Shown here: positions 29,223 through 62,700 of the stretch, piece after piece
Position numbering within the stretch: the first letter of the stretch is position 1
How the letters are laid out: each line of letters begins with the position of its first letter
DNA from: Tubulanus polymorphus
Taxonomy: Eukaryota > Nemertea > Palaeonemertea > Tubulaniformes > Tubulanidae
Length of the DNA: 64,000 nucleotides
Reading direction: 5' to 3'
NCBI RefSeq assembly: GCF_964204645.1
Contig: NC_134029.1
Span: forward strand, 6,714,001 to 6,778,000
The notes under the pieces: generated by a model
What the model was told of the DNA's origin: nothing
The model's input: only the letters and a program-made list of their open reading frames with translations
Database searches by the model: none
Position numbers and translations under genes: made by a program

Positions 29223-31559
29223 TCAAAGCATCCCGTGCCCGACTGCTGAGAATTTCATTCGCTTTTGTTTCTGTCTTTGATTACAGAACCACACGCGTAC
29301 AACGTTTTTCTTCAAGTCCAATTTCTCGGCGATTTGTGCAATTTTTTCTCCTGAGGGCCTCGGCTGGACTGCGAAATACGCCTCTAACGATCGTTTTTCG
29401 GGCGCCGCGATAGAAGTCCGTTTACGTTTTTTATCCATACCGTTCGCGTACACGTCTGGATTGTTCTTTTTCTCTCTAGCGACGCGTTCTGCCTCCTCCA
29501 ACCACGCTTGGAGAACGGGCTTCAACGCGATCATGTTATTATGACTGAGCGTAAGCGATTCGAATCTACAAATCGTGCTTTGGCTTAAAGAGCCGACGCC
29601 TGGCAGTTTCAATTTGCCCAGAGCCGAGCCCACATCCGCCTGTGTGACACCGAGTTTGATTCTACGCTGTTTGAATCGTTCCGCGAAGGCTTCAAGTTCT
29701 CTCGGGTCGCATTCTTGATCGTGCATGGTATGTGGATGCATATTATGATGACTAGGCGGCATTCCTGGATGTCCGTTCATGCCGTTGTGAGGATGTGAAT
29801 AGGTCGGAGTGTAACCCATTTGATGCGGAGGCGGACCGTGGTGATGGTGACCATTTGCCGGATGGTGGCCATTGTGATGATCAGTCATAGACGATAAAGG
29901 CATCGACGCGGCAGCGGACATTTGATCTAACATTGAATCGGTGGTGGTGAAGCCATGTAGTGGACCCATCTGATGCGGTCTCGAAACGGAAGGATTGATG
30001 TTATGATGCCCCATGTCAGTATGCCCGTAAATGCTATCGTGTTTCATCAGCGGAGGTGACGATGCTTTGGAATGGATGTCGGCTGCGGCAAGTGCCTCGG
30101 CTCGCGCTAGTAAACTGTCATCTAACCCTCCAAAGATGTTTCCCTACAATAGACAAGAGATTAAGCACGCATTAGACAATGATCAGAAATCCGAATTCCG
30201 ATGGGACTGATACCCCGTAATTATATCCTTAATATGAGCCGTTGTCTTCATTCTCGGTTGTATCGAAGCCGTGTGTGTCATCGACGATGGTTTCACTAAT
30301 ACCACCGTTGACTTCATAGTAACGAGGTGTAGAGGGTTGTAAAACAGCCCTAGACAAAATGATCGGACAGATGGCCGAACTCGGATGAAATATTCCACTC
30401 CGTGCAATTTCGCCACCTTCGTTATACATTTTGTTTTATGAAATTTACAACTTAAAGAATTAAGTTTCACGTCGACTGAAATAATTCAGCAACCGACGTA
30501 AGTTTCAAAATACTGCCCGAAAATTGAATCGACAAGTTGTCAACTTTACGGAATTCATTCAGATTGCAAAATCATGGCAAAATTTAGACGTATAGAAATC
30601 GGTTTTTAGTACTAGCAGTCACAGCAAATAAAATGAAACCAGATAGTCTAGAGAAATGAATACAAGTTAACTTTCTGGATACTCTTCCGATACTGCAGAA
30701 ACGTATACAGTCTGGAAAATACATTACTGTAATGTACTTGTTATATGTCGCTAAGTTAGAAAAAAATATCAGACGAAACAATAATACTCGAACGACTGCA
30801 TTTATTTTCGGGAGTCTGTTAACGGTAAAAGATACGTCTGATATGTTGTCGTGTTAAAGCAAGTTTATCAAATATTTATAGACATCGCCGTAACATAATA
30901 AATGAAATCGTTGTACAATTCGCGATTCGTACTTCGTTCGCAAAAACGTAGAAATTCGCCCTCTTTTACAACCAGCGGGTTTAGCGGAAAAAACCACTTA
31001 TATATATTCCACTCAAATCATAAGATTCAGATTCAGATTAAGAACAATCTCGAAATTCAAATAGATGTTGAAAAATATTTTCGTCAAGAAAAACCTTAAT
31101 TGATACCGAACTAACTTTATGGTATAAAAACATCGCTCTTAATATAGAAGAGTGAAATGGAAAATTTTTCTTAAATAATTTTTTCTTATTCAAATATCAG
31201 ACTTATTCATATATTAGAAAATATCACCTGAGACACATGCGAAAACTACAAACGATAGATTAAACTGTTTACCCGTTGCTTCACAAAAATTGATACATAA
31301 TTAAATTGTACATCGTCATTTCTATAAAAAATTACTAGAATACACGAGTGATTTTGATCCGTGAATTATTAACGAAAAGATACTCAGAAATGAAAATTAC
31401 AAAACATACCGAATGATGGTTGGACATCCTGCGAATTGGATCCGGTGGACGGTACGGCGGGGGTGAGTAACGCCCCTGAAGGCTCGGCGGCCCACCGTGA
31501 TGGTTCATATTGTGGTGCATGCCCAGGTGAGACTGCGGTTTTGGATTCATCATCATCAT
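29223..31559 (-). CDS. POU4: POU class 4 homeodomain transcription factor (Brn-3/unc-86/acj6)
   Basis: Two coding exons, 31559-31410 and 30143-29223, join in phase 0 (donor TCG|GTATGT, acceptor ATTGTAG|GGA), giving 356 aa. In order: a conserved start MMMMNPKPQ; a GRYSPPPYR..IRRM motif; the POU-IV box GNIFGGLDDSLLARAEALAA at about 51-70; a His/Pro/Gly-rich linker; the POU-specific domain at about 196-272; and the homeodomain at about 288-347 with WFCNQRQKQKR in helix 3. All recognition residues look intact. POU4 proteins are nuclear DNA-binding factors specifying sensory and other neurons. The single intron just before the POU-IV box matches POU4 genes in other animals. The vertebrate-like start and the arthropod-like GRYSP motif sit together in one exon. 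The class assignment is certain. Confidence 0.97.
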
Positions 31560-33558
31560 TATGAATTTATACTAATCCCAAAATCACAAGAAGAGAATGT
31601 TGTCCGGTGTTGTCAGAATGATAGCTAGTCGTTGACTGTGACTACTCCACAACTCACGCCGCGCTTTCATTTATTCTCGCACACCTGTTCTCTCTTTGAG
31701 CGAGTCACGTGACGGCGCCATAACTTAGTACCAACCAATCAGCGCGCTTAATTTTTAATGACAATCGACGACCAGCCTTTTCGAGCCGTAAGAGACGCAT
31801 AATAAGAAATACTCCGCTCAAGTGCGAGTATGGGAAAACGAAGCAGCGCAGAAGCTGCAAGTTCCGTCCGGGATATTTGTTTTGAAATTATATGATTTTT
31901 GATGACGAGCTGGCAACGCGTTTAGCAGCGTTTTGGCCTCGTGCACGGCCGAACGACATTACTGCAGTAAACATTGCACCTGAAACATGAAATCTATCCA
32001 GGTGGTGGCAACGCTGCACATCTATATTTTCCGAACTGGAATCCTCGCAGACGGCATTTGTCCCACCAGTAAAATATAAACAACTTTCTTTACATTTCAC
32101 TTTTTGTCGATTTCAGAATATCCCGTCGCCGAACAAAGCCCACATGTTCCATAACAATAGAACTACAATTGAACTCGAAGACCGGACAAACTTTCCGAGA
32201 GCTCTTTTCCTCCGGCTGGTGTTTGTTTTTAGAACGTATTTGACCAACAAATATGTTTCATTCACAGGGACTCGTGTTGACAAACTTAGCAAGTAGTTGT
32301 ATAAACTAAGTGAGCTTGACTTAAGGCAGAAATGCATCTGACGGGGACATGTAGATTATGTTATTGGCTTTATACTTATACACTTGATAATTCTCAGTCA
32401 ATAGAATGCAGCTACTTGACGGCGATCGGCATCCGATTTCAGAGAAGTTCGCTTCAGCTTTCAGGTACCTCCACCCGACCAGGTAAAAAGCACAAACGAC
32501 AGGATCAAATTCTTCATAAATATTTCAGATGCGATCGATTTGCGTTTGTCGCAATAGTCTTTTTTCTGCGCGCACCACAAGACGGCATCCGTCTTTTTTT
32601 CGTCGTGGAGAGACAAAAAACCCATTTCAAATAAAAATTTGAAGGAAACAAAGCGTGCTCCGATGATCGGTAAGATTATTTCGGTTCGTTAGTACAAATC
32701 GGGTAAACGTAAATATTTGTGCCAACAACTTAAATTACCCAAAATTTGTGATTGAAAAGATATTTTACGTCCATCTTAATAAATATGTACCATATTAACA
32801 TGGCATATGCTTTGCATTTTTGTTTACTTCATATATGATACTAGAGTAGCAGAAGATATTTCACGCGTGAATTTAAGATTTAAAGGTATTTGCAGTGTGC
32901 ATTTTCCATTTCGTTATACTACCGACCCGCGTTAATTAATAAAGATGGTGTTAGTAATATCACCTGCGCTCTTTTAACCATGACGTGCCGGTCATCTGGT
33001 TTCGTTGCGAACGTATTTCTATAACTAGAAACTGTAACAAGTTTCGGTGTGTATGTGGCCACGTATGGACGTGCTTAAATGAAGATAACCGTACACAAAA
33101 GATCTATAATTCATGTATCCGCAAACAGGGCATATTTTATTTATCATTTTCTCGCGCGCGAGAAACATCGCCGACATAGCGCTAAATCTAACTGATCTTG
33201 CTGTTTTATTCATGCATGTTTATCTATTGTATGCATTTTTAAGCTTTGCGCAATCCGGAGTCAATTATACCCTCGGCACTTTCGAGTTATGATTCCGATT
33301 CATTGGCATGCATCATCTTTGTATATATGCGCGTCGACAACAAAATACACACATTTTCATTACAACGTTTAAGTTAATTCGAGGCGACAACCAACAATCA
33401 AACCAACTATTTCTAAAACTTGATAAACCTATAACTTTTCATAAATTCTGTATCAACAGTACCATTAGTTCGATACGGTTAGAATAAGTGTATTTAAGAT
33501 ACGTGTTAGCATTTTTCGGTAAAAGGTCATCGAAAATTCTTAGAAACTATAATAATAA

Positions 33559-33694
33559 CAGTGGCGGATCACCATTATAGAAAATAGTGAAATTGTGAAC
33601 ATATTTCATTCCTAACTTCAACCAGGAAAGTGCTCAGACCCCCATGTATAAGTAGTGACCCAAGTAAGTAGTGTGACCCCTTTTTCCGCCCCTG
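33559..33694. mobile_element. hAT-like non-autonomous element, 136 bp
   Basis: The left end is CAGTGGCGGATC and the right end, on the opposite strand, CAGGGGCGGAAA. These are the CAGNGGCGGA termini also seen at 4983-5244. The interior is non-coding. The flanks are AT-rich and no clear 8-bp duplication can be read. Confidence 0.5.
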
Positions 33695-35127
33695 AAAATA
33701 ATTATTATATATCGTTGTTTTTTCTATGAAGAGATCCTTCTGGTTAATTGTTTGGATTTTATCATTTTTCAACTTAATGGATAGTAGTTTTTACCGACAG
33801 ATGACATAATGACTATCCTAATTCACAATACGGAGGATCACGTGAAATAATAGGAAGATAAATGGTAACGATTCTAATTGGCTTCGAACCAATCAATTTG
33901 CGGAATCATTTTCTACGATTAATTGCTTTTTCATCGGTCGAAATGACGATATCCGTGCGCATGGCAATCAAAGTTTGTTTATATATGAGTACGACAACAA
34001 AGTGCGGGTCACGTGCCTAAGAGCAGACATCAATGCGAAAAAATGGCCGATATTGTTACAACAGTCGTTACTCCTGCTCGTGCCGGTGATACCTAGGTGC
34101 TTTTTGATCGGTGCCGCGCGCGCTCACACCGTAATTCTATTTGTTTGTATTTCGGTTAATAAAAACCCGTTCTAATTGCGCCCCGTTTAATTTCAACACC
34201 AGTTCCGGCCCTGAAAAGCACCTCGATTTTCACACGATCAGCAAGCAATTGACAATGATACCGAAACCTTTAGAAATGAAAAATTAATTTCATTTTTTCT
34301 ATTCGTTCCTAAAACGTCGGAAAAATAGAATAAAAACATAAATTTTATCATAATTAAGATACATTGGTTGAGACTTTTTGCCATAAAATGTCAAGATTCC
34401 AGTGCAATTTGTGTAAATCTTTTTCGCAGATCATCTTTCCTACGATCATCAAATCTTTCAAGCATTACAAATCTTTTACTCTCGTAATGCCGATCTTAAT
34501 TTGTCGTCGATTGGCTCCCAGGTGACAACATTAGTTATCAACTTTTCGACTGAGCAACTCTGGCTAGGCCAAGCCGCGAATAACAAGCAGCCTGCAGTTA
34601 GTTTTCGCATCATTTTCTGCTCAGTCGATTTCGCGATGACGGCCACCGGTAAATTTCCGTCAGAAATGACTCACTAAATAGCCGTCGATGGCTCACTTGA
34701 AAGCCATAAAACAGACCATAAAATCAGAATGCAAGATAGAATTTTCACCACGTTATTCTGTCGTTCTCATTCGCGATGAAGTTTTTATCACCGGAGGACA
34801 AGTCTCAGATCAAATCAATTGTGTCCAAATAAATGTGTCGGATATCTAATAAAAGTCATCTGCTTTGCGGCCAAACAACAAAGAAATATGCGTAAAGTAC
34901 CGGCTGGGAATAACGTAATGATCACTGATTGTATTTATTAATATGAATATAGATAGAATTCCGAGACTAAATAAGAAATAAGTCAATATAAAAACCGGCA
35001 AGATGACTTAAATTCACGTTAGTTTTTTACGAGAAATTGAACGGACGCCATCGAGATTTTCAAGATGTATTTTCAAATTTTCTATCTTAAAATAGTGATT
35101 GACTATTGATTGCTATGTTTTAATTGG

Positions 35128-35228
35128 GAAGATTTCGTTTGATTTTGGTTTTGAAGTCCCTTACAAACCCATCTCACCTGCCCGGAGTGAAACAGGGGGT
35201 CCGATTTTGAAATCGGAAATCGAAGTAC
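35128..35228 (-). repeat. Dispersed ~100-bp repeat, copy A
   Basis: On the minus strand this reads TACTTCGATTTCCGATTTCA, then CAGGTGAGATGGGTTTGTAA, then TCAAACGAAATCT. It aligns along its length with copies at 41541-41645 and 44411-44500 on the other strand. No terminal inverted repeat or coding capacity is seen. Confidence 0.75.
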
Positions 35229-35633
35229 AGATAGTAATGTGATCGGTGATCGGTAATGTGATCGGGAATTATTTGTCTAAATCGAAATACAATCTAACGA
35301 AGTATAACATTACTTGAGCAACGCCTCCGCAGAAACTTAGTTTGTTCATGTTTGTTTTACGATGAAACATATGCTACTTCGGACACAGCCACCGCCCGCG
35401 GGATCAAAGCTAATATACCGACCACCCTCGCATGTAGTATATACTCGTGAATAAACACCAAATGTGAAACTGGACATGAAAATTAGTAGCGTCCGAATCG
35501 AACGGGAGACAAGCGTCGGCACCTTCGAGTCGCACTCTCACACCGCGCCAAGATCAAAGAACCTGTTTATGAATATTGTCCGCTGACCATGTCCTAGGAT
35601 CGGCGTAAATTAAAATTAATCAAAGGTCAACCT

Positions 35634-35634
<1 letters not shown>

Positions 35635-35668
<34 letters not shown>

Positions 35669-35897
35669 GAGAGAGAGAGAGAGAGAGGGGGAGAGAGGGA
35701 GAGAGGGAGAGAGGGAGAGAGGGAGAGAGGGAGAGAGGGAGAGAGGGAGAGAGGGAGAGAGGGAGAGAGGGAGAGAGGGAGAGAGGGAGAGAGGGAGAGA
35801 GGGAGAGAGGGAGAGAGGGAGAGAGGGAGAGAGGGAGAGAGGGAGAGAGGGAGAGAGGGAGAGAGGGAGAGAGGGAGAGAGGGAGAGAGAGAGAGAG
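35635..35897. repeat. GA microsatellite and GGGAGA hexanucleotide array
   Basis: A GA run (about 35635-35685) passes into about 35 copies of the hexamer GGGAGA on the plus strand, ending in a short GA run. The purine/pyrimidine strand asymmetry is complete. The open frames across it (REREG or LSLSPS) are repeat artefacts. Confidence 0.95.
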
Positions 35898-38800
35898 GTA
35901 TCATACGCAATTAATTTTTGATTGCAGTTGAAAATAATTTCGCAAAATATCAAAATAACAAGTAAAATTGGTTTTAGAGACTGCGTATGAATGAAAAACA
36001 TACGAGAGATGCAACAATAATTGAAGAAATAAATTTCGAGCAACATTTCGTCTAAAGACTATTAGCCATCATCAGGCGTACTGAAAAGCCAAGATATGTG
36101 TCATTTGCTTTAAGTTAGTTTTATGGAGTACACAAGTCAAAGTCGCTGGGGTTTTCAATGGTGCTAATCGATACGAAGTTTCGAAAACTAAGTTACTACG
36201 CGTTTCCAATACAATCAAACCATAATAAGCAGATCTACTTCCGTAGAATGCAATTGTTCGTGGCCGGACCCTGTCCGTGGAGTTTCGTGCTCCGCATTCA
36301 TCGAAACTAAGTCCGTTTCTATCGATCCGGCGAATGACATCAAAGCAACCGAGAACATGTCGCATATAGGCTATGAAAAGTTAATGAGTTTTGCTCTCCT
36401 GTTGGAACTATTGTTTCACTGGAATTGAACGATTCCGGTGGATCGTTCATGCGCACGAAGTACGATTTGTATGGTATGATATAAGTAAAGCCTGTGAAAA
36501 CTGCTGCGAGAATTTTACAGCAGCATTTCAGGTTAGGTTATCCCGTTGTTTTGAAGATTGGGGAGATAATCGGTTCCGAATGAAACTACATCTGGTTACC
36601 TGTACAGTTTGTTAATCAAAATGTTCCCCGTGACCAGAATCCCGAAGTTAAAAAGCTTAACGCGCACAGCAAGACATAAAACGTCCTAAAACACACGAAA
36701 TCGAAATGCTTTTCTGGCCTGTTTCATGGCTGCGTGCATTGCGCCGAAACAGTGTTTTGGTAAACCACCGTGTTTCGTGTTTCGGAGCAACGCACACGGT
36801 CATGCTACAAACCAGAAAGGAGTATCTGTATCGTGTTTGTGTCCCGCTGTGCGCGCTAGGCTTTGACATCAACATCAACCGTTTTCGACCTAAATGACCT
36901 AGAGAGCGTGTCATGTTTTGTGGATGATTATTTTTGAATCCACCGGTACGCCCGCAGTCTGGTGAGAAATGACTTTGAATACAACATGTGTTTTGAAACA
37001 ATATCACATTGACTTTACGATATTACAAGGTTATCAACAAAACAATCATTGCGTGTTACTTCCTGAAAAAGACTTGAACACTACATTATTCTTATTGATG
37101 GGAATAACTCTAATTCCAAAACTGCAAATGTGAATTCTTGAATGGCCCGACTCAGCTAAAAACGAAACACCAGATTAGATTATTTTGTTTCTATACTTAT
37201 CCAGCTAACTTTTTCCAGTCAGATGATTAGAACCACACCGCGTATTGACAAAATTGGCAGCAAACGTAATCGGCTGAGCGACCCATCTCAACAATGTTCC
37301 CAAACCTTTGTGTTCAAGCAATATTCACCTAAATGCATTGTTGTAGAGAATGATAGTGATCTAAGCGATTGTATTTGGAAGCAGAGATCGTTTTTTTTCA
37401 CTGAGTTAGATTCATTCAATCCCCTTATGGTTGTTAAAAGATAGTGGGCGACTGAATGAATGAATGGATTAGTTTTTGAAGAGGTTGATCTCGACTTTTC
37501 AAAAGAAACGCAAACAGAAGAAAGAAACCTAGAGCGGTAATTGACCGGAGGATCATTTTCCCTCAGAAATCTTTATGTTAAACGATTGCCCCAAATGGAT
37601 AACTTATGTCTGGATCTACGAGTGACATTCAATCTTGATATCGATGCGCGTGAAAATATTTCAGTGGTCCTCCTGGATCGATGTTAGCTAGCGCAACGAG
37701 CTGTAGGGTTCCGTTAAAGCAAAAGTGTAGTTTGTTTAATGGTTCCCTCTTAAAATGGCGTTTCAAAAAAGTGTTGGAAATTTTGCGATGCCGGCGTGGT
37801 TTTCCGATACTTATGGGGAAACGTTTATGGTCGTTGAGGATATTGGTTTTGTAAGTATTTGCGGATGGAGGGTCCACTTGTGCGCACTTATTAATTAGCC
37901 AGCGTTGAGAGGCCCCGTTGTTATCGAGTAAAGTGAAAATCGAGGAACATGAATTTAGCGACTAGATGTTGCCCACTCGAGGCTACATTTCTGTCAGTAT
38001 CTGGGAATTGATAGGCCAACCCGAGTACTGATGGATAAAGTGTATTTCCAGGTTTTTCCACTCTCTCGAATTCATCGCCATCATCAGAAACGAGAAACAA
38101 AAACTGAACAAAACGAAAATAAGACTTCGTATATCTTGGTTAAAAGCAAGTAGAACATGTGAAACTCGATGCTGGTCTAAAGATAATGACTGATATTCGA
38201 AAAACTGCAGTAGAAAAAAGAACAAATGTCCATCCACTCTATAAACGTTAAGAAGGAATACACGATCGCGTTCGGTCCCAGGAGGTAACAGATCAACATC
38301 GACGCTACGTGAAATGAAAAGTATAATACCGCATCGCAATAATTTTGGTGTTGAAAAACGTCCCTTGTAGTTTCTTATTATTGCCGTTGAACGCCCTTGG
38401 GAAATTTTCTTTTTCGACTCTGTTCTCCGGTTGAATACGATGCGGTTACGCAGCTCGAAAGGCGTCGTCAGATTTCACGGCGAATGATCGGATCTTTAAA
38501 AAGAGAAAATGCGCTAATCCTTTCAGCGGTGTGGACCGAATTTCTATTCGAGCAGTCGATTCTTTAAATTTGCCGAGCATTGCCGAGCGAAGTGAGCGTT
38601 ATTTTGCTGCCCGCGACGACAGAGGATACGTGTGTATTCGATACGGGTTTTGTTTCAAGTTCGGATTTGCGGTTTAGTGGTTGTGCCTCCACGCGAGCGT
38701 GTCAGCTTACTGGTAACCGGCTTTTTCGAGCCGCCTTCTACCGGAAACTTTGAAGCTGAAACCCTCGGCATCTTTTTTCATGTTTTGTCATCAATATGAA

Positions 38801-41540
38801 CGCCTGCTAGACATTCCCTTACTTTGCGTAATGAATTCATAATCACATTGTACAAAAAACTGCGTATGATAACTTTCCAGGCATTCACACGAGGTTTGGT
38901 ATTTTGCGTGATTGAACCGCTGCTTTTTCAAAAAACACAGAAATATGAAACTTTTTTCTTCACAATCTGTAAAAGTATGGCGTGTAATGCATAAAATATC
39001 GCCAACACTGATCGAACTATAGTTTTCTAATGTTTTCAGCGCCCGGGTATAGCTTTTTCAAAAGTTACACTTTTCATAGAGGAATCATGATGGACATTTA
39101 TCTAAAGTTTATTCGATAAAGTGCATCGCACTTCTATTACAGATTACAGTCGACACATACATCCATACTGTTTTAATACCTTCGATATCATCTATTATTC
39201 AATAACTCGGCTGAGTATCCGATGTTGAAGCACGTATATATCATTTTGTGGGTTTAATAAACAATTTTGGAGTCTAGTTTAAAGCTCAAATTAAAAAACG
39301 CTGTCGGGCTTAATCTTGTTGATGAAATTCCGCGGTGGTGGACTCGAAATTAAAAAAAAACAGCCGCTTTTGTAGGGTATATCATCATAATTTCAAATTA
39401 AAACTAGATTGAGCCAGAATTCTATTTGGCCGGTAAATTGTAACAAACTGGCTCGGATGATTTCGCTGCAATGAGCAAGTTCAGCATCAGCGCGGCAGGG
39501 AGACTAGTTGACATTCTGGTGTTTGCTTCGCCACCTCGTCAAGTCGTCTCCGTGCGGCTGGATGGGATAATTTCTAGATTCAGCAGCTGGGATATATTGA
39601 TCCTCCACCTGAATTGACACATTATAACTATTTCGACATCATTCAATAATCCAATGATTTCATAGTCGAGCTCTCACCTTCGTTACCATGGAAGCCAAAT
39701 TGTTTTATTTCTTGTTTTATGTATAATAAGCGGAACCCTGGTTTGATCAACGAGCCAAACGAAAAAAGCAAAAGATTGTTCGTCTTAATTTGACGTTAAA
39801 CTTTGCGAATCCTGACATTAAGATACTTCCGGTCACCATTACCATACCACCCTAAGCAAATGTATTTGGCCAAGACCACCATACACGGATGTTTTTTAAA
39901 GGCTATCTGCAAGTTTTTAGATAAACTAGTCTTACTATTGTAAGACTATTTTTTTTTAAATATTCTAGAATTTCGATTATCATCTTTATTCTTTGATATT
40001 ATCCTACATTTCGATATCCGTATTTGAAAATGTCGAACAAAACACAATTGTCTCGAAGAATTCACCTACATCGAAAAAAACATGTAGATCGCGTAAATTC
40101 AAAGTGCTTTGGCGGTTTTCATCAGTCGCTTAAATATCATCCTGGGAACGAACCAGCCTGAAATGCGGACGCCGTCGCGCGCCGTCTGAAAGAAAGTGAG
40201 AGCTCGCTTACGGTGCGCTCCGGATACGGACACGTGCGCTCTTTTGGTAACTAACCAGCCGTTAAATCCCGCGATTGTTCCCAACTTTGTTATGTAAATG
40301 TTAAAGACCAATTGTCGTGATGGGAGTCTATTTTGCATTATTATTACCTATTATAACCTATTATGATTTTCCGGACAAATGTTTATCCGATGTACAAGGT
40401 GACCGCAGCCCCCTGGCCGGCCGATAAAAACAAAAGGATGCGCCTTCTATGGCGTGTAAGGCACGCACGCGTTACTATGGACTTGTCCGCGGAACACGCG
40501 AAGCCACACGACATCTCACGGGAAAAATGCCTTCCTTCCACCCCAGGAACGAGCGCCGGACATTGTAAGACGCAGGTGCGGAAAGAATTTAACCCCGGAG
40601 CACGCGCCCGATCGGACAACAGGCGACTGAGGATTCCGTAACATAAAACTCAGCGGGAGATAAACTTTGAGATCGGAAAAGCTAAATTCCCCAAAAGCAG
40701 CGCTCGCGTTAACCACCTGCTCGTGCGACCAATTTCGAGTACAAATTTTAAGCCCCGCAAAGAGGACGTTTTAAGTTCTGAAAATTATGAGCAGGCATTT
40801 CTGCAACATTATCATTCACCCTTATATTCAAGATATCCTTATATTCGGAATTTTACCGAACCCTTTGTTCATAATCGCGTTCTTTATCAACTACCCGAAC
40901 ATCTCTGCTTCCTGAGAATTTACAATGATTGAGAAATCCGATCGTGAATAATAGGCTGTAAAGTTAGTATGATAGGACAGTAGAGTGTTTTTGCACGGAT
41001 GAACCCATGACTGAGCGGACAGAAGGCGAGTTTGCGATCACTAATGGGTAAGGTGTCAGCGAATCAGGCATTATTCTAGTCTCGGAGCCGTTTTCTTGGC
41101 GCTCCGTCATGGCCGGCTACCTATCACTCCCAGAGCAGTGGATACAAGCTTTTAATTACAGGCAGATCAATAGAAAACCTGGCGAAATCCGGGCCGATCT
41201 TGACGTAGTTGTTTCAGATTAAATCTTGTCACGACGTTGACATCGCATTAATGGTTAATGTCGGCGAACAGAAGCGCGAATAGAGGCAATTCAAGTCTCT
41301 TAAAAGAACGCCTTTTTGAAATGAGAAAAAAAGCACCGCTCAGGTGATAAAAATGTCGTGTGCAGAATTAAGAAAAACAGCCAAAACAAACGAAAAATCG
41401 CGAAATACGAACTGGAATAAAAATGAAACGGAATAAAGCGATAATCATTTGCATTCGAATTGAAGTAAAAACATTTGTTAAAACTTCGATTTAAACAAAA
41501 AAATTTGTAATTTCGACCGCCGATCACACAACTATATTTG

Positions 41541-41645
41541 TACTTCGATTTCCGATTTCCAAATCAAACCCACTGTTTCGTTCCCAGCAGGTGTGGTGGG
41601 TTTTTAAGGGACACCAAATCAGAAAAGTCAAACGAAATCTACCTA
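41541..41645 (+). repeat. Dispersed ~100-bp repeat, copy B
   Basis: TACTTCGATTTCCGATTTCC, then CAGGTGTGGTGGGTTTTTAA, ending TCAAACGAAATCT. It matches copy A (35128-35228, opposite strand) end to end and copy C (44411-44500). Confidence 0.75.
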
Positions 41646-44410
41646 TCAACTAGAAAACAGGGGCAATCCCTATATTAAGATCAAAAATAAGAAAAAAAGT
41701 TGCTTTACATGACGCGGAAGAAAGAAATTACTAGACTAGAACTGTAATATCCATGTGTATTTATCTGTCTGGTGGAGTAGGCTAATACCCTTACGCTTTC
41801 GCGCTTAACTACGGCGCCATAGCACGACAAATATTTGGTATGAATTTTACATGCGGGATAATCGTAAGTTGTGTACCAGTTTTTCATTATTCATACGCCA
41901 ACCATGTCGTTTCTCTACCGTGACTATTTACACAGAAAATCAACGCTTTTCCGCTAATTTACCGTTAATTCACTCCGCCGAAAATAACTACGCATCGCAT
42001 TCCGAAATATTCCTCGAATGAAAATTCAACTAATCGCACGAAATCATATAATTTACTAATCGAATACCCAATGAACGAATATGTTACTAAAATTTCTTTC
42101 GTGTATATACTACTTTTTACATCTGATATATTTTGAGAGCATCGTAATTCGAAAACCTCTGTCACCTTATTGCTGATATTGCAAAATGAGCCGGATACCT
42201 ATAGGCCTCGCCAGGCCATTTCGTACGTGATAATGAAGATGATGTTGAAAATATTTTCTTTTGTCGACTTGCCGCTCTCATTAAAACGGCAATCTACTTC
42301 TATCATTATTTCAGAAATTTAAGCTTTCTAATCGACAGAAGGCGTGCTATTAATCATAGAATTCATAATAGAAAAAAGCGCGATGATTTGAAATAAAAAT
42401 ATATCTATCGATTTAAAATGTTTTATATGGGTGCGTTGTTGAGCGGGCGGTGAATTGGGAAGTTAATCGCCGAGATATTGATGGCCGTCCTGTCGACGAC
42501 AAATGGAGTGTCGTCTGACGACTAAATAATGACCGCTTATTTAACGCGTTTCCACTTTTCGCCCATTTCAAGTGAGATACGATTACAATTGGTATTTCTT
42601 CGGCTTCATTTCGCTCGGATAATAGGCGGAAATTCATCATTTTCCGGCGGATTGACCCCGATTCTGTTAGAAAGCTTTCGCCTGAACGCGTCGCCGCGTG
42701 AAGCGCTAATTGTCAACGCTTAAAACAGCGTCCGACTCTCCGAAGGTTTCTAACCGAACCCATATCCGAACCGGTCTTAAATCATCATCGCGACATCGCA
42801 ACCAAAAGGCGTTAAAGGCACTCGATTAGAATAGACAGAGAGAAAGCGTTAATTAATCAAACGTAAGAAATGAATTGTAAGCCCGAAGCATCGTGGCGTG
42901 GGGTTTGTCGTCGAATTAACACATCATCGACAATGATTCATAAAATGTGTGTTTATTTCTCTCTAAAAGACAACCAGAAAGCAAAATATCATTTATCCCA
43001 ATTCAGGAATATGTTGGCTTTTTAATGTTGGAAAATCCATTTCGATAGGCACATTTCGTATGATGCAAAAATGTAACCAAATGAAGCATACATTGATAGT
43101 TTATTTGTTAGAAAATCAGTTGTATATACTACGATGAATATACTGAAAATGGATCTCTGGACCAGACGTGTGAAATGCCAGAAATATTGCTATGAGGGAT
43201 AGGAGAATACGTGAAATATACATATATAGAAAAATTAATGTAACGATATCAAGATGATATCTTTATTTGGCATATGGAATATTACGCCGGTCATGGACGT
43301 TTAATACGTCAATGCGCTAACGAAGCTGGGAACATGGCGTGTATACGATGTATTAATGTAAAGTTAATGCCACAATAGGATGAATCGCCGCCGATAAAAT
43401 ATTCATTATCATCATCATCAACCGAGCTGTCGGCGGTCGTCGGCTTTTCATTAAAAACCCTAAACAAAGAAACACCAGTCATCGGGGCTTCATTTCACAG
43501 AAAGCGGCGCCCAGGTTTTCCACAAGCCCGACTCGCAAATCTATAGAGTCCTAAGCGCCATGCCGCTGAGAATTGTACTTGTTTTTTTTCTTCGTCCGCT
43601 TTTGTTTTTTATTTACTCTTTTGTAAACAAGTCGACGATTTAATTTAGAAGATAAGATCGGAGCGGAGAATGAAATCAAATCATGGAACTTCCATTCATT
43701 CAGAACGTTTACACACGAGAGCGGCTTAGAAATTTGTGGGAAAATATCTACGTCGGCATATGTTTTTACCTGGTAGCCAATAGCTGCTTAAACAAAGGCT
43801 CGAAATTAGTACTTGACTTGCTATTGTGAAATAATAGATAATATTTTTCGGCTCGTGATTCAAGTGATTGGCGCGTATCCAACCGAGTTAGGCGTCGGTA
43901 GCGACCAATGTTTTGAGATGTCCGTTCACGTGCCCTGCGCGTGGTGGCACCACCTAGCGACGGATATGCATTTCGGGACATCTGTTTGTATTCTCATATC
44001 CATTGCGTGATTATGTTTCTTTTTAAGGCAAATCGGTAATTCTAATTTCGGTTGAGGCAAGAATCAATTTCATTTCAACGTCAAGTCTTATGTGTCGGTT
44101 TTACATATTGTATTTCTACAAACCCAATGCGAAGAGGAAAGTAATATGCATGTAAGCTTATGTGAGAAAGAATATAAAAAGGAAAGGATAGCAAATCTTT
44201 TTCGAATGATCAATGATCTTCCCTCCCTTATAGTTACTTCCGAATATCGATGTATTAAATCAGGTATCTACAAGATAAACACACGCCATTTGCTTACCAG
44301 TTCAGGCTGGATGGAAAGAAAATCGTTCACCTAAAACCGAAACCGAAATTTACAATAATGTACTTCGATTCAAATGAAATGCCGACCAACTATTCGTCTA
44401 TATCATTCTT

Positions 44411-44500
44411 TACTTTGATTTTCGATTTCAAAATCAAACCCCTTGCTTCGTTGGCGGTAGGTGTGGTGGGTTTGTTAGGGCCACACCAAATGCATTAGTA
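44411..44500 (+). repeat. Dispersed ~100-bp repeat, copy C
   Basis: TACTTTGATTTTCGATTTCA, then TAGGTGTGGTGGGTTTGTTA. It is shorter than copies A and B, lacking the terminal TCAAACGAAATCT. Confidence 0.7.
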
Positions 44501-47174
44501 TCCCTAATTCATCCCTACTTGAGGATTTAAAAAAAGATACGTTGGGTAGGTGATGCAGTTTGCATTGTGGTCGGACGTGCTTACACAGAACGAGCTGCCC
44601 TGTCTAATAGAAAAACACGCATTTCATTGTCGTAACAACAATAGTCAACCTGAAATGTTGATATTCCATAGTGTACGAGATAATTGAGCTAAACCGATGG
44701 AATACGCTAAATAAACGACGATTGTCTATGGGAAAAAATTTGAAAATGAATGCAGGCGTACGTTGAAAATGATTGTATATTGTAAGGATTACGGTAAAAA
44801 ATTTACGCATTGCAGAATTATTGACTCGGAAATCACTCAGGCGTATACACTTTTATTATCAATTGGTAACGGATGGAATTAAATTGTACTAATCAATGAA
44901 AAGCAATTTATTACAACGCTATACTAGAGATGGAAAAATTTTTCATTCAAACTGTTGCTGATTTATTTTGCAAAGAAACAATTCAACCAGGTTTATTCCC
45001 CGGCTTCCGCGTACATATAACCATAAGGGATGGGGGCTGGAACTCGTAAAATTGATGGCGATGTTGGAGACTGGCGTGCAGCTATTGGCGATCTAATTAG
45101 AAAGCTTGTTGTTCCACGATATTAAACAATTCCCGAGGGTGATAGCTTATACTTAAATTGTCACAACATCAACTCGCAACGAGCTAATGAAATCAATTCG
45201 ACGAGAAGGATGATTGGCTAACCCGCTATGGTTAATGCCACCTGTTCGCTAGAATTTCTCTATTTACACCGCGCGTGCGCCTTTTTACCGGGACCCGCGT
45301 CAAAATCGCCGCACCATATGCCCACGTGTAAATCTACCGTGTAACTCGAAACTATAATGATTTAAAAGAAAGTGAACATATTGCAATTTCATGGTGTCGA
45401 TTTGGTCGGATTTTCCGCGAACACAGTTTCTGACACCGCCTGCAGTCGGGGAACGAAACGCATTCAGGTAGAACGGAGTGAGAACGACAGGAATCGCGCA
45501 CCATAACGTCGCCATATGTTCACAAGGTAATACCCAGTCACGCCAAGTCACCGCCTGAGCACACGTGACTTGAAAATCAAATCTATCATATTCTCCCGAA
45601 CTCCTCGGACTAACCGAAAATTCGAAGTCTTCATGCGATTATACATCAATATCAATATCGCTATACGCAAGGCTGGCAATAGTTCACATTTCAAAGCGTA
45701 GGGAATGTAAACGATTTCGAAATTTCGAAATAGCTCAATAAAGATTTGCCGCATACAAGAGGCCAACCATTGAAGTACGGCCTCGATACATACATATAAT
45801 TAGTTTGTTTTAATGGTTTTCCGCGTAGTGGATATATCGCTATTATGATTATGCCGATGATTGTGGTCACTGTAGCGTTGACGAATAAGCGACGTCGATA
45901 TTTGGCCAAACACATTGATAGTCGCAATGGGATTCCGCGTGCAACGAAAATCGTTTGAATATTTTATAAACAATCCTTTCATTGTAAACGCAAATGTGAT
46001 ATGACTAGTGGTGTTTCTATAGAGTTGCGCGAGCATCCGTATACGAGTTGACAGCACTTCAATTTCCGTTAACGATAAAACTTATTTATTTCTATCACAT
46101 AGATAAAACCAAACGCGCTTTTCAAATATGTTGAAACGAAAGCGGGGTTTTCACGCCGTAAATTCATGAAGTCGCAGCCAAATCTATACATATATTTCAC
46201 ATATGATAGCATTCACATTTTTGTGTTTTTCGATTCCCCGACTGGATCACTTTCATCGACAAATCCCTGTGATTGAAAAACTGACATTTTTGAAAATATC
46301 AGAATAGTGAAAAAGAAACGTTTGAATGTTTTTTTTTAATTCCAAAAATCATTGTATTTTTCATTATGCCGCACTTTAATTTATATATATTCAAATTACG
46401 TGTTAATGTAATAATTCAGTCGAGAAAAGCTGGTTATTTGCAACATAGATAACTCATTTTATTCTAAACCCTCATCGGAAAGTTCAACAAATATCATACG
46501 TAGATGTCGTAAGTCCGGCTAAAAGAGGCTCTCCTGGTTAAATTTGACAACAAAAACTTCTATACCGATTGGATTCGCATTTTCGACTTGTGGGCTAAAC
46601 TTTCAGGTCTAATTCATTTATTTTATAGACATTTACCACAGACAGTTTTCCTTCGACCAGGAGTTGATTCATATTAGATTTACGTCAAGTATAGTCGCCA
46701 TTATCGCTCCGTATAACAAGTAGCAACCTCATTTATATATGCATTATGCGTTACGTAATTGAAAAACTAGGACCAATATCTTCCGACCGCTTTTTACAAG
46801 ACTTTTACACTTACCAATTTTTAGAATTAAACGAAAGGACGTCACCATCGTCGAGACGGTATCCAAATACAATCCCGTTCGAAAGCTAGATTTCTACTAA
46901 AATGGCCAGGAGAACCGTGCGCTAATTTATTGCGAATAATGTTCAAAAATTTAGTAAGCTCTTAACCGTGTTCGGCGTATGTCGTGTGTTGCCGTCGGGA
47001 CCCTAAATTATTTACCCAACGAACAACATCCAACGGATACGTGAATAAATAACAGGCCCATGAAAATTAAATGGCAATCGATGAAACCTGATATCAAGAG
47101 CGTAGCAAAATAATCCATTTTTTATACAAATATATATATATACACATCGATATGGAATATTTTGAAATTCTTAC

Positions 47175-47237
47175 CTGGTGCGGGTGATACAGCCCGTAGG
47201 AGGACATGTTCATATTTCGGCTCATACCGTGCATCAT
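47175..47237 (-). CDS. Probable distal alternative first coding exon of POU4
   Basis: On the minus strand, ATGATG opens 21 codons, MMHGMSRNMNMSSYGLYHPH plus Gln, ending CAG|GTAAGA, a strong donor in phase 0. The next POU4 exon downstream can accept it in phase 0 in two ways: at GNIFGG (30143), or at an AG inside exon 1 (CTTCAG|GGG, new exon start 31475), which would join it to GRYSPPPYR. Drosophila acj6 is known to place a short Met-rich leader before a GRYSP motif, which supports the second joint. The Met/Ser/Tyr/His-rich composition resembles POU4 N-termini. The intron would be about 15.7 kb. This is inference from splice phase and composition; no transcript was available. Confidence 0.5.
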
Positions 47238-50200
47238 TGTGACTGTTCGCGAAAGCACGTGCGCGCTTGATTTCCTCTCGAAGCAGACGAGAAGAGATGA
47301 GATGAGATGGTCTTTTTAACGCCGCGGCAACCGTGGAAAGGGGATAATTATTAACGCGGCACACAGTGGCTGCTTAAAAATTGAAGAAAGTATTTAGAAA
47401 CCGGTCTTAAAACTCGCCACGGTGGATAATAGTATAATAGGTCGTGGTATTATTACAATCGAAAATCGTGTTGCTATTGGATGGCGAGAAGACTGACACG
47501 AGGGATAACTGGTTTTCTAATTAGTAATTCGCTTCAGCTGATTCCACCAATAACAATCGTTCGCCGAACTGGTAAGAGGCGGCGAACAGAATTCCAGTGA
47601 TTGCCAGCCAATAATTTCGCTCTCTGAGGGGAGATTATCGAAACATAAACAAAATGTATAGTTGGCGGGTTTTTTAAGTTCTGTTCTGGATGTTATCAAG
47701 GTTCTGCATTGTTTTTTCCATCAAAGCTGCGTGGATGTGATCAAATTCATTACGCCGTAATAAAACATTGTAAAACTCATATCGAAGAAAACTTCTGTTC
47801 ATTCCAAAAATCCTTCCGTAATCCTCTGTATCCTCTGAAATATTTGCGTATCGATTTATAACGTTCGTGGCCATCCAAAGTGGAATACGCGTTCGATGCT
47901 CTGTTTAGAAAAAAAGCAACTGCATTTTACTATACAACTTCCACCAGAAGACACAAAACGCGTCACCAGAAAATCAGATGACAATCACATTCATGTGTCC
48001 CACTATGATTCTGGATTATTCGGGCCGTTCCTTGTGGGGTGCAGAGTGGTTCTGTTTAGGAAATTTTGAAATATTTTTAAGTGCCATTTTCGCAAATACT
48101 ATTTTACATAAGCAATAGAACTGCCCATTATCGGGATTCTCTGCACACCCCCCCCCCAAAAAAAAAGAAAAATTCAAATGATAGGCCCTGGATTGGATAG
48201 AAGTGCCTTATCATTTTGTTTCACTATGCGTTCGTTAAGTTTATACGTAACGTCTTAAATACGTACAAACACACAAATACACATTATATATTTCATCTAA
48301 TTAATGAGGTCTCTAGAATACTGTGGTTGGCCGTGTGAATACCGCGCATATTCAATGACGCTTCGCGGGATAGCGGATTATGAAAAAGAAAACAGCGACG
48401 CGTACGAATTCCATGAGGCTTTTCAAATATTCATTCGTCGGCTTTTATTGCTCAAATAAAGAGTTATTAAGCGATTGTTTTGCTTTCAGGCTCGTGCCGC
48501 GCGTCTCTTGACCATCATTAATACTTATCTCAAACCCGTAACAATCAACACGTTTCTTGACATTGTTCGCAAATGACGGAGTTGATGAATATATTAATGG
48601 CGTCGATTCGCCGCTCGACACCCTGTCACTATTGTCCGAAGACTTTCCATTTCGATCTTCCGTTGTTGTTGTTGTCCGCTTTTCAGACTGAACAGAATTT
48701 TATTCCCACAAAATCAAAAGGGAAAAGGGCAGACGGCAATCGAATTTCAGCTGAAGACTCTCCGTTTTATCTCAAGCATATAGTACAAACCGTGAACGCG
48801 ACTTTTTCGAATATCTGTCCAATTTCGCCATTAATATACGCCCATCTGCTGGTAAGGCTAAAAAATTAACAACCTGTAATTAATAACCTGGTTCTCATTT
48901 CTGCTCAACTTTAAGTCTACCCGGCGGCCGCCTATCCATACTATACATTACTTCATCAAAAACCATGATCAAGCTAACAATAACAGACCTGACAGCTATA
49001 GAAACTGATTTTAAAATGTATTGCATTTTACACAATGACCCGGCCGATCAGGAGAAACAAGGTATTATTTTTTTAACCTTACGTTATTTTTTTCAATCAT
49101 TCCATTCCTTCGGAAATGAATAGTAAATCGTAAAACCATTCGTTCGAGACACCAATTCAATACCCATGCAGATAAATGAATGAATGAATGCATGTAACAG
49201 GTGCACGAAGTATCAAAATATCTATTTCCGCTATCATTGTCGTCCAGTGATCACGTGACGTGTTAGCGATGTATTCACTGCGCAGCTTCTTTTTTGAGCG
49301 CGCGACTATTACTAAAATTGAATGTCTACAACGTCGATAAATAATTGATAGTGAAAACATCAACTTATTGCCACATATTATGATCGCCATATATTATTTA
49401 TTAATCTCTTTCGCAAAGAAAGAAAATCAGCCAATATTGTTATGCAGCATGAGTAACTTCTTTTGCAATGAACGTGTCCGTGTATAAACAATGCCGAAGA
49501 CAGTGGCATCGCATGATAAAAGCTAGTTTCTCGGAGTATTTCGTTAAATATTTATTTGGGAAAATATTTCGAAGCGTTTCCCAACCTGTTGCAAATATAT
49601 ACAATCAGATGTGCACGACGTTTGCTAACGACATCGGAAAAAGGCCGGTGCATGCGGAAAGAGGGTTCCGGTGCGGGCGCGTGCCCGGCACGAGTCCACG
49701 CGTGACCAACACGAATACCGGTAGGCCTACAATATGAGCCTAAAGAAAGAATGCACTATCGGATCTTCCGTCTTGCAGCTGGCTCGTCTCCTAGTGTACT
49801 AGATAGAAAAGTAGTCTAAAAAGAACCAATTTCTCCTGTGTAAAAATCAAATCACAACCAAACGCTTTCGAAGTGACCCATCCCTCGGTGGCTTTTGAGG
49901 AATGAACTGCCGGTTGCGTCAGGTGACCTCACGCTGGGAGTTTTTAGGGCTAATAACCACGGCTGCTCGGTTAGGGGGAGGGGTAATCGATCTGAGCTGA
50001 TCTCCGGTCGACATATTTCCATTATTTCGCGAGATTTTCCACAATCAATGTCGCAGATGAAATCTGGCGAAAGCAATTTATCTGCGGTGTTTTCGTCGAT
50101 GACAATCTGACGGTGAACGGGTATGAGCGATATATCTCAGGGATGTTGTTCAGATTATTCTTCGCCGTTTCAATTTATTACCGTCAGATCGTCCCGCACA

Positions 50201-53405: not shown

Positions 53406-56400
53406 TTAGTGCATGTCTAATACATCGGGCATGGCTAACTCTGGTTTGTCGTAACCTAATTGTTCGGGTGTGGAAATTCCGAGCTCTTCGAGGGTCGGAG
53501 TAATCTCCTGTAGAATGTATGGCCAGATGACTTTCTTTCGGTTTCCGCATTTGAACTGAAATGAGAAAGCGGTGACAAATTATCCAATCCATAAGACAAT
53601 ACGTACATCACATCTCAAATCAGATCTTATTCAGAGGTGGTTATGCAAAATGGCTCATAGAATTCATTTGATACGTCAGATAATCTATGTGGGTTTTTCA
53701 CTGACTACTTCACTTATTCAGGGTCCGTACAGATCAGTCATTCCTAGATATAGGGAGTTTTCCGAAAAGTTTCAAATTTTGAATAAGTGTCCGTAAACTC
53801 CGAATCGGCATCGGTCACCCGTAAACGATTTATCTCCGAAAATCGTTAATTTGGTGGTTTTGTATGCAGACTCTTAAGCCGCGATCACACAAGCATTTTC
53901 GGCCCGTGCCAAATTTGGCCCGGAACAACTGTTCACACGGGTGCCAAATGGGTCCGGGCCAAATTTTGCCCGACCAAAAACGTCGGACCTTATTATAGCA
54001 ACAGGCAAATGATTGCGTTTGAATTACAACTGGCACCGAAAATGATCCACTTCGCTTTGTTTGAGCATTGTTGAGTATCGAGTGAATGGTTTGCGTGTGA
54101 ACGCACTATCTAATTAGGCACGGGCCAAATCTTCTCCATGTGATCGCGACATTATCTTATACTGTACACTACTAAACTTGGTTTTTCATTGGTAAACCTG
54201 CTTCGGAGAAAAAATCCTGGTCACAACTGTACAAATTTTAATAGGCGTAGTCTAATGTACAACTACAAGCTAGACAAAAATTTCTAATGGCCTATTTCTC
54301 ATAATTGGAGGAATTTTGGGTATTTTGCTCAAATTAAAGGAGTTTCGGCACCTTTAAAAGCATATTCGGGTTAAGAAGGAGTTTTTAAGGAATTTAGGAG
54401 TCGTAGGGCACTTGTTAAACGGTCATCCGAGTTCATCTGATCCAAATTGAGCGAAGCCTGCTTCAATAGCGAAATTCCATAATCTAAGTTTGAACTCAGA
54501 AATCAAATTCATCAATGCGCCAATATTTTGCGAGTTGTTCAATGCCACTCATCAAATAGAATAGTGGCATACCCAAAAGTACAGTAGGCTTCATGCTCAA
54601 CGTCACTATATACAAGATAAAGAGCTGAAAATATAGTGAATTATCTGATAAGAATACATCAGAAATTATTTGATAATGTGTAGCTGGAAATAAAGTATAT
54701 TTGCACGATTAAAGTATATATAAATAGACGATATCAGTTTTGGCACGATTCAATATAGAAGAGATCACAAGATGGTATGTAGAACACGACATAGTGAAGG
54801 GTTTAAAAATCAGCAAACATTGTCAAAACCAACGACTTTAAACCAAAGCTTCTATTATCAATGTCAGGCTTTTTGATCTTGTTGCTAGTTTCAATTCAAG
54901 AACCTGCAGGACCCAGTTCCGCAGTTCCAGTTAAGATTTGACTTATGAGTTATAATGTGAACTGATTTTAACTCTGATTTATCTCTTAACTCACAACTGC
55001 GGAACCAAACCTTGGATCCTGCCTTAGAAGTTGGCTCGTTCCACAAAAACATGCGTAACCCAGGATATAATTACTATCGAAGAAAATTCATTAAAAGAAA
55101 TAAGCTCTATAGAATTTGAATCCAAATACAACATACCCATAACCAATTTCTGATAGGTCCCACAGTACCTACCCCCAACATATGTCAAGTATAAAAGAAA
55201 AACTTCGATAGATACCTGAACAGCTTCCAGATATCTGACAGCCAGTGAATGATCATTTATTCTACGACAAGCTTTTAATGCTGCAACAATAATTCGTGGC
55301 TCAGGAACCAAATCAAATCCCTACGAAAAAAGATAACAAAATGCAAATATTTTCATTTCAATTTTCAGCAACGCCACAAACAACCTAGTTTATGCTCGGA
55401 ATACTTCCAAAATCGAGCTCCGGCATACAGTTCATGTACCTGCAGTTCATTCATTCCTCTTCTGACGTCCCAGCCATCGATATTTGGATTACTAAAAAAC
55501 TGTTCATACCGGGCGTCGAATTCTTCGTCGGTTTCTACGCTATGTTTGGACATGTGGCGCACGCTGGTTACTGTAAAGAAAAAACAAATAAATCATATGA
55601 ATAATGAATGCGCATAACGTATAGGCTGATACCGGCTGATGCCTTAATATTTTCATCCTTTGAGTCGGATGCAAAACGTTCACACAACTAGGCCTACTAG
55701 AAAGACAGTTCCAAATGGGTCAGTACCGTACCTGGAACGTACCAAATTTGGAACGGACCAAATTAGTGTGCATTTACACACGCAAGATGTTGCTAGGAGT
55801 ATTCTTCCCCGGAAGTTATATCTATTGAATGATTTATGAGTGCCTGGGTGTTATTCATTTTAAAAATTTTGATGATGGCAGTGCATCATTACATCTGGAC
55901 ACATATCTCCTACAATAATGGTAAATTCAAGGACATTTTCAGAACAAATTAAAATGGCTACTCAGCGAGTAACACACGCGATAGACGGATGAATAATAAT
56001 CTGTTAGCCTTTATTTTTAGGCAATACAGAATTATATGAAATCTGAAAACTATATTAATCAGCTTGATGACGGAGGAGGAGCACTGCGCTACAAGTGACT
56101 AGAGCTAGAGGATGTTATCACTAAGGCCAAAAAAAAAATATATTCTGTTTCTGGCCCTTCTGCACAAAATGATGCAGTTTTTTTTCTACATTTGACTATC
56201 GAGTGTGATGGATTAGTCGACAGGAACAAGTCCGGACGGATGTATAGTAGCCGGCACTTTCAAAATTGACATCGATATCAACATGCTTTTGGTTTTCATT
56301 CATAATCAGACAATAGCAATGAATAGATAGATGGACTAAACTTTCGCGTTTTACGCCATAGGCGACTAGTTGGCGCTAGCGCATGGTGCGCGAATTTCGG

Positions 56401-59789: not shown

Positions 59790-62700
59790 TCACATTGACA
59801 ATTCATCGTTTTCAACATTTGTCGAATCGTCTACGGGTGACCGATGCCAATTTTCGATATCTTCAATGGTTTGAGGCAGGGGTCGGTTTAGTGTCTCCGG
59901 TAAGATCAATGCTGCAAATCCGACAAATATACTGAGAGCGCCAAATAAGACCCCAGGAAACCAGGGCAAATATTTCACCTGTGAAAGAAATCAAAACTCA
60001 CTTTCAAAAGAGATAAATTTGCTTTTACAACTTAGGTTCACCAAAATGAATACCAAGAATATGGTCTAGAAACCTGATTAAATTTCGGGAAGGAAATGAT
60101 TCTGCGACCCGTCAAAAAGTATTATTTTCAATTATAAATTATGACACCATACTTGCCACATAAGTCGAAAAAGGCGCAAGGATATTGGCTATACGTCCAA
60201 ACAACGAAGAAACCCCTAGGCCTGAATTCCTGAAAGTACAGAAATGGTTTTCGCATTTCATAAGATATCGAACAGGAAAATTGGAAGGTTAGAATGTGAA
60301 AATAACTTCAGGATCACCTGAGATTTGTAGGGTAAATCTCTTGTGCGTAAAGAACTATCTCTGCGAATGAAAATGTTATTGCGTATTTAGCTATAAGCGC
60401 CAGTACCGTTATCAAAACCGATAAATCCGTCCCTGAATCTGGAGATAAGAAATAAACGAGAGGATGAGTGGAAAAGAAATACAAAATACACAATTCGATA
60501 TTTGCGAATCGTCTGATAAGAATAATGCACAAGGTCCAATTTCATGAATAGGTTTAAGCTTATAACGGTGAATTTTAAATTTTGGTCATCATTGAAAGCA
60601 TGTTTTCATAAGCAATTCGTGAAAATGGACCCTCTGAGCGATATACATATACGATACCCGTTTTCTTGGGGATGACGCTGGCTAATAATAACGCAACTCC
60701 TGTAATAATATGATGGACGACAAGAGGCCACCGTCGACCTAATCTGAAAGGTAACGACACGAATTCATGATTTCTAATTCGCTTATAATTTCAATCGCCT
60801 GCTATTTCGCTAACTTACTTTTGAAGACAGATGATACACAGAATGTAAGCCGGTATTTCTACGATTCCGCTCAGAAAGAAATTCAAGTAGATATTTCCAG
60901 CCAACTGCGTAGACAGTAACGTCAATCCGTGATATACTAGAGTATTGACGAACCTAATTTACGAAAGAAGACGTTATTTTACCCGGTTTGAATTCGTTCC
61001 GTAAACTGAGCATACAAAATTTCAACATATCTATAATGGAAATCGCGTTACCACAAAGAGCACATAATGGAAGCATTGATAAGCATTCTTTTTGATCTTA
61101 AAACGTCTAGAAATGTATATTTTCTTCCTTCTTCGTCTTTCCGTTGATTGGATCCCTTTCGGAAACAGTTCAACAGGTTCTTTTTAACTGTGCTGCTATT
61201 CGATGAAGCTCTGCTGCCGCTAAGATGATTGCTATGTAAGTTGTAACTATCGCTGTCGTGGTTAGATACGAGCGCTCGATCGGCGGTTATTTCGTCGACC
61301 GCGTTTAATTCGTCTGCTTCGTGTAAGTATTGCTCGAAGTTATCGTTATTTTCAGTGATGGCGGCTTTTCTAAAATGTTTACGCGCTTCTTCAGCCCTGC
61401 CGTTTGCCACTAGCCAAATAAGAGACTCGGGCACGTACCTTAATGAAAAGAAATCATGAAGTGAGAGTAAAAAAAATCCCAAATTTTCAAAATGTGTCGT
61501 TATTGTTTTTGTGACAGCGACTTTCATTGGCTTTACGACCTACCAATAAACAGCGATGGTCAATATACAAGGTAATGAAATTGCCAGTTGAAGATGACGC
61601 CAATCTCTGATACAATACGCCATGAGCGCCAAAATAAACCAAGCTGCCGACCAGAATAACTGTATACTTATTCCCGCCACACTACGGTGGCTTGCTTGCC
61701 AGAGTTCGCAACACAAAACGATGCCAGTCAAACCAGAACCCTGAAAACAGTATGACTCTGGTAGACTGATATAAATCTCAGTATTCAGAGTTAATGAAAA
61801 AACCCATAATTTATGACTTAATGATTTGTTCTAATCTAACAAGTTTCGGATTAACTCCATCGTCAGCGATAAACAAAAATCAGATCATTTTCGTTTCTCT
61901 AATGGTGGGGGTTAATCACGGGGTTAGTCAAAACTTCGAAACCGTCAGATAAGAATAAACCAGTCATCAACTGTGGGTTTTGCTCATTAATATATCATAT
62001 TGACATTTGAATTCACGCTCATATCATCGTTTGTAATCGATCTGAAGTTCACACATAGGGAATTCGAGTTTGTGTTTACGTTTAGTAGATTGAAATCCAA
62101 AAGTTAATAAACACCAACAGATTGTTTTGGCTCTAATACCTCTCGTAGTGCTCCGTTGAAGAATTTCAATGCGGCAAACGCCTCGAAATTGGGCACAACT
62201 GCGATTATCGTACCCACAACTACCATTGCCCACTGGCAACCGAAATGTACAGGTTTTCTTCCAACTCGGTCGGATAGCGCCGGAAAAACGAGGGCTCCTA
62301 ATAAAACCCCGGCAACGAACAACGACTGTGACGTCTCCACAAAGTAATTACGGTCACACACAAGATTCCACTTAAATAAAGATATATGTATATAGCACAT
62401 CGATATATAATTTACCGTGATGTTTACAAATGAAGAGAAATGTGTTAGGATCGAATGGAAAAATCATTTATCATCAAAAAATCAATATGGTTTATTGAGT
62501 CGTAAAAAATTTATACACGATTGAATGTTGCATCCGATCGCTGAATCATAATTTCTAACCTAGGGCTATTAATTCCTTAATTCCGAAACTTGTGTGTCCT
62601 TACTAGTAGACATATTTGCTTACCTCTGTAACGATAGTTGATCCAATAGTCGAATCGTAAGTCCATCCATCTGTACAGGATTCTGTCACATTCGTCTCGG

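Follow-up and report, generated by a model that had tools for sequence, protein, structure and literature searches.

A probable second 5' coding exon, about 15.6 kb upstream of proximal exon 1, in a POU4 gene of the nemertean Tubulanus polymorphus

A 21-codon open frame lying ~15.6 kb upstream of proximal exon 1 of a POU4 gene, on the same strand, is probably a second, alternative 5' coding exon of that gene. In its sequence it offers an in-phase second coding start and a predicted donor, as an alternative first exon would. The explanation that we rate best as a whole, with roughly even confidence, is that the gene has two alternative 5' coding exons and that the distal leader would be joined to an in-phase site within proximal exon 1 (31475) and possibly also to exon 2. 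Positions below are those of the window, i.e., the whole 64-kb stretch of DNA that was analyzed, and the features discussed are as follows.

31410..31559, minus strand: POU4 proximal exon 1, coding part, MMMMNPKPQSHLGMHHNMNHHGGPPSLQ-GRYSPPPYRPPDPIRRMSNHHS (frame analysis).
29223..30143, minus strand: POU4 exon 2, with the rest of the POU-IV box, the POU-specific domain, the homeodomain, and the stop (Pfam PF00157 and PF00046).
47175..47237, minus strand: probable distal coding exon of 21 codons, MMHGMSRNMNMSSYGLYHPHQ (phase 0, donor rank, coding score).
47169..47174, minus strand: distal exon donor, GTAAGA (99.9th percentile of 6999 GTs).
31410..31475, minus strand: GRYSP block of 66 nt, a putative internal exon should splicing occur at the internal acceptor (phase 0, acceptor percentile).
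31476..47174, minus strand: putative intron of 15.7 kb (partial scans; no convincing exon or other gene).
55216-55320, minus strand: COX5A exon upstream of POU4 (PF02284, E 2.3e-14).
61048-62740, minus strand: MFS-type transporter gene, several exons (weak hits to MFS_1 and Sugar_tr that fall short of the curated cutoffs; SLC22-like by eye only).
3871-3950, minus strand: match to the C/D snoRNA SNORD36 (34 bits, E 0.13; exceeds the gathering score).

Judged by its predicted protein, the gene belongs to POU4 (Brn3/acj6/unc-86) and is otherwise ordinary. Proximal exon 1 runs from an ATG at 31559 to a last base at 31410, ends in phase 0, and codes for MMMMNPKPQSHLGMHHNMNHHGGPPSLQGRYSPPPYRPPDPIRRMSNHHS; its GTATGT donor is at the 96.5th percentile under generic donor weights. 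Exon 2 begins in phase 0 at 30143, behind an acceptor with a score of 4.3 (98.8th percentile), and stays in a single open frame through to the stop (921 nt). The protein of the proximal form matches Pou (PF00157, E 2.3e-31) and Homeodomain (PF00046, E 2.8e-18) in Pfam and so contains a POU-specific domain and a homeodomain, as expected of POU class 4. At the start of exon 2 it contains LLARAEALAAADI, which we take to be the POU-IV box (motif LLARAEALAA..DI). When the genome was searched with the POU domain, six rows matched, spread over four contigs (C1, C5, C6, and C10), with the row on C5 being that of the window. When the first 137 of the 349 residues of the predicted distal isoform were compared with the whole genome, all three matches (E up to 10) were the three exons of the POU4 gene itself, and the gene therefore looks single copy. 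A further POU gene is found on contig C1 (L025 1018-2265, minus strand; 415-codon open frame) and is POU3-like by eye only.

The distal exon extends from an ATG at 47237 to a last base at 47175 (63 nt), and its phase-0 donor reads CACCAG/GTAAGAATTT. An earlier note on this DNA had given these boundaries and phase, as well as positions 31475 and 30143, and all were recovered exactly when the frames were derived anew. The note had also described the donor of the 21-codon exon as strong, in agreement with our scoring, in which CAG/GTAAGA falls in the top 0.1% of the 6999 GTs (generic weights). On the two strands of the 64 kb there are five ATG leaders of 10 to 60 codons with a phase-0 donor score of at least 5, and the distal exon ranks first among them by donor score. 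The second-ranked leader, 62740-62624, is located just upstream of the open reading frames (ORFs) with weak MFS-type matches and appears by eye to be the first exon of the transporter gene. The codon log-odds of the distal frame (15.3) exceeded those of all 770 control open 21-codon ATG ORFs, which partly overlap each other and reached a maximum of 8.7. Because the score was trained on POU4's own two exons, it captures POU4-like amino acid composition besides coding and is sensitive to Met and His; it therefore supports the distal frame as part of POU4 rather than as coding in general. Met or His accounts for 8 of the 21 distal residues, compared to a control maximum of 6 (n = 770), whereas the Met count on its own (5) was equaled or exceeded by 3 of the 770 controls. 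Genome-wide, a degenerate pattern built from the distal exon matched once.

Inside proximal exon 1, a CTTCAG/GGG acceptor with its first exon base at 31475 directly precedes GRYSP in phase 0, and frame analysis thus bears out the position at which the earlier note had placed it. Under generic splice weights, which were not fitted to this genome, the site scores 2.4 (96.7th percentile of 6104 AGs); its pyrimidine tract alone is mediocre (81.6th percentile), and a GAG ends 7 nt ahead of it. The GRYSP block that it would open has a coding log-odds of 12.3, the block itself being within the training set. An acceptor as good in a given phase was found in 255 of 3438 random 150-nt stretches (7.4%), and when exon 1 was recoded synonymously 5000 times, the 31475 site reappeared in 42% of the cases. 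Within the same exon, an out-of-phase AG at 31428 (minus strand, 47 nt downstream) outscores it, as do the genuine acceptors with the best support, those of POU4 exon 2 (4.3) and the COX5A exon (6.8). Exon 2, in its 921 nt, has no internal acceptor-like site as good as 31475. RNA structure over the internal acceptor gave no signal (z 0.32). The acceptor at 61740 in the transporter-like gene, which is probably genuine although the exon that holds it did not itself match Pfam, scores just 2.2, and use of 31475 is plausible for that reason. We regard 31475 as an in-phase, plausible, but ordinary acceptor that on its own constitutes weak evidence.

The phase of the distal donor suits not only 31475 but also the first base of exon 2 (30143), and the distal exon could accordingly be a real alternative POU4 exon that is joined straight to exon 2, skipping all of proximal exon 1. 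Such a transcript, which we consider possible but on the unlikely side, would be a simple case of an alternative first exon, and its product (MMHG...HPHQ-GNIFGG...) would have a shortened POU-IV box. It has phase 0 on either side of the junction, it uses an acceptor that is better in both total score and pyrimidine tract, and it dispenses with the intraexonic site, but it drops the GRYSP...IRR block, of which vertebrate and fly POU4 proteins both have a counterpart. Acceptor strength thus favors 30143, whereas retention of GRYSP...IRR favors 31475; we place more weight on 31475, and it is possible that the two junctions coexist. The splicing of leader to GRYSP that the earlier note had proposed is possible, is in phase, and keeps the whole POU-IV box region, but a direct join to 30143 is equally in frame and has the better acceptor. 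The 5' end of the proximal exon lacks a good acceptor (the 200 nt preceding the proximal ATG contain 14 AGs, the best of them at only the 82.8th percentile), and it is for this reason that we would pair the distal donor with 31475. An in-frame extension through an acceptor in the proximal 5' untranslated region (GATTAG/TATAAA at 31571; leader-YKFI-MMMM, open frame) was rejected, as the site is at only the 50th percentile.

Joining to 31475 is also compatible with the distal exon not being the first. The distal frame remains open for another 26 codons upstream of the ATG at 47237, so the choice of this ATG is itself tentative. Acceptor-like sites are found upstream at 47623 (98.6th percentile) and 47568 (98.8th percentile), and the minus strand interval 47260-47310 has a very strong pyrimidine tract (99.8th percentile) at 47276 but with a GAG ending, which could mark an acceptor or an initiator region. 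A TTAAAA precedes the distal ATG by 82 nt. The acceptor-like sites and the open frame suggest that there may be more exons, and a promoter ~16 kb upstream that drives the distal exon, as the earlier note had envisaged, is consequently not borne out. At least one further exon, coding or not, may lie upstream, with the promoter farther away, and both the sites at 47623, 47568, and 47276 and the 26 open codons are in line with this; however, a scan for phase-0 exons upstream of 47260 gave nothing convincing and acceptors of such percentiles are frequent by chance, and we hold this arrangement to be rather doubtful. The motif ATWATTWAT, described as the POU-IV motif in PMC8846589, occurs 9 times in the window, compared to a shuffle mean of 14.6, and the occurrence nearest to either start precedes the distal ATG by ~2.1 kb.

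A search for extra exons, restricted to phase-0 exons of 24 to 400 nt and whole-codon length, covered minus strand positions 47174-31620, 31409-30144, and 63990-47260 and gave 11 candidates above thresholds, none of them convincing. Ten ORFs of the intron interval (9 of the 69 minus-strand ORFs of at least 45 amino acids, simple-repeat ones being omitted, and one plus-strand ORF) were compared with Pfam, and 0 of 10 had a match at E 0.1. The distal ORF could still be a frame that is open by chance and happens to end in a good donor, or part of an undetected transcript, with POU4 starting at the proximal exon only, as its length of just 21 codons and the response of the POU4-trained score to Met and His would allow, but this is improbable because it is the first of the 5 leaders and scores above all 770 controls, and no other gene was seen in partial scans between the distal exon and POU4. 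Within the putative 15.7-kb intron is a tandem AGAGAGGG array of 33 copies (35636-35898). Over the whole window, the GC content is 38.7% and the CpG observed/expected ratio is 1.34, and this ratio argues against heavy CpG methylation in the genome. Elsewhere in the genome, COX1 found no match; of 20 small contigs retrieved in part, the 15.6-kb contig C77 (L004) showed no recognizable mitochondrial gene and no tRNA (ARAGORN, bacterial code) in its initial 10,000 bases, and Rfam gave no hit for 10 of the 20.

The earlier note had called the predicted isoform acj6-like. Leaders were compared by local alignment with shuffle P values, in six comparisons of low power with the acj6 and human POU4F1 sequences. 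The proximal leader resembled the human POU4F1 leader (score, 41; shuffle P = 0.0015), and the distal leader did not significantly resemble the acj6 leader (score, 20; shuffle P = 0.105), so that a likeness of the distal leader to that of acj6 is not supported. The remaining pairs were likewise null (proximal-fly, P = 0.70; distal-human, P = 0.21; distal-proximal, P = 0.59; fly-human, P = 0.60). Given the low power, homology of the distal leader to that of acj6 is unsupported rather than excluded. The likeness to the fly protein rests on GRYSP, which is also present in the proximal isoform, and the term "acj6-like" is therefore not justified by the leader. The fly-like feature could instead be the position of the junction, immediately before GRYSP.

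From the exon structure, phases, and statistics, we infer how the locus may be transcribed, where its promoters may lie, and which junctions may be chosen. A proximal transcript would start upstream of 31559 and give the MMMMN form, and a longer transcript carrying the distal leader would start upstream of 47237. The spliceosome would then pair the distal donor with the internal acceptor (31475), so that the POU-IV box keeps its GRYSP...IRR half, and might also splice this donor straight to exon 2. The outcome would be two separately controlled POU4 proteins with a common DNA-binding domain and differing front ends. POU4 factors act in sensory neurons as terminal selectors, and start exons ~15.6 kb apart would, if this model is correct, allow separate control of the two versions. 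The locus also bears on whether a single gene can combine front ends of the fly and vertebrate types. A far-reaching extension is that one gene here has both POU4 front ends (MMxMNxK...MH, a proximal leader of vertebrate type, and a distal one attached at GRYSP in the fly manner) and hence that an ancestral bilaterian POU4 gene had two alternative leader exons, of which vertebrates and insects each retained a different one; we offer this as a long shot and think it very unlikely. Among the titles and opening lines of abstracts of the matches listed, in a search whose scope left most subscription journals outside, none described an invertebrate POU4 gene with a distal leader exon.

The Drosophila acj6 (I-POU) protein has a 21-residue leader immediately before GRYSP. 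The isoform predicted here would similarly have a 21-residue leader joined directly to GRYSP, and it differs from acj6 in that the sequence similarity of the distal leader is not significant (P = 0.105). Caenorhabditis elegans unc-86 is likewise a POU4 orthologue with a possible alternative transcript: in the portion of PMC3685541 that deals with it, a form with or without an exon is listed as "possibly valid" on the basis of a single EST, and the annotated start was later revised. Unlike the arrangement proposed here, that entry concerns an alternative internal exon and not alternative promoters. In vertebrates, POU4F2/Brn-3b is described in PMC6694165 as a two-exon gene that produces long and short isoforms through alternative promoter use, the short form being encoded by exon 2 alone. 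The gene described here resembles POU4F2/Brn-3b in being a two-exon gene with N-terminally differing isoforms from alternative promoters, which here are predicted; unlike the Brn-3b short form, the isoform predicted here would gain a distal leader and could retain the whole POU-IV box region.
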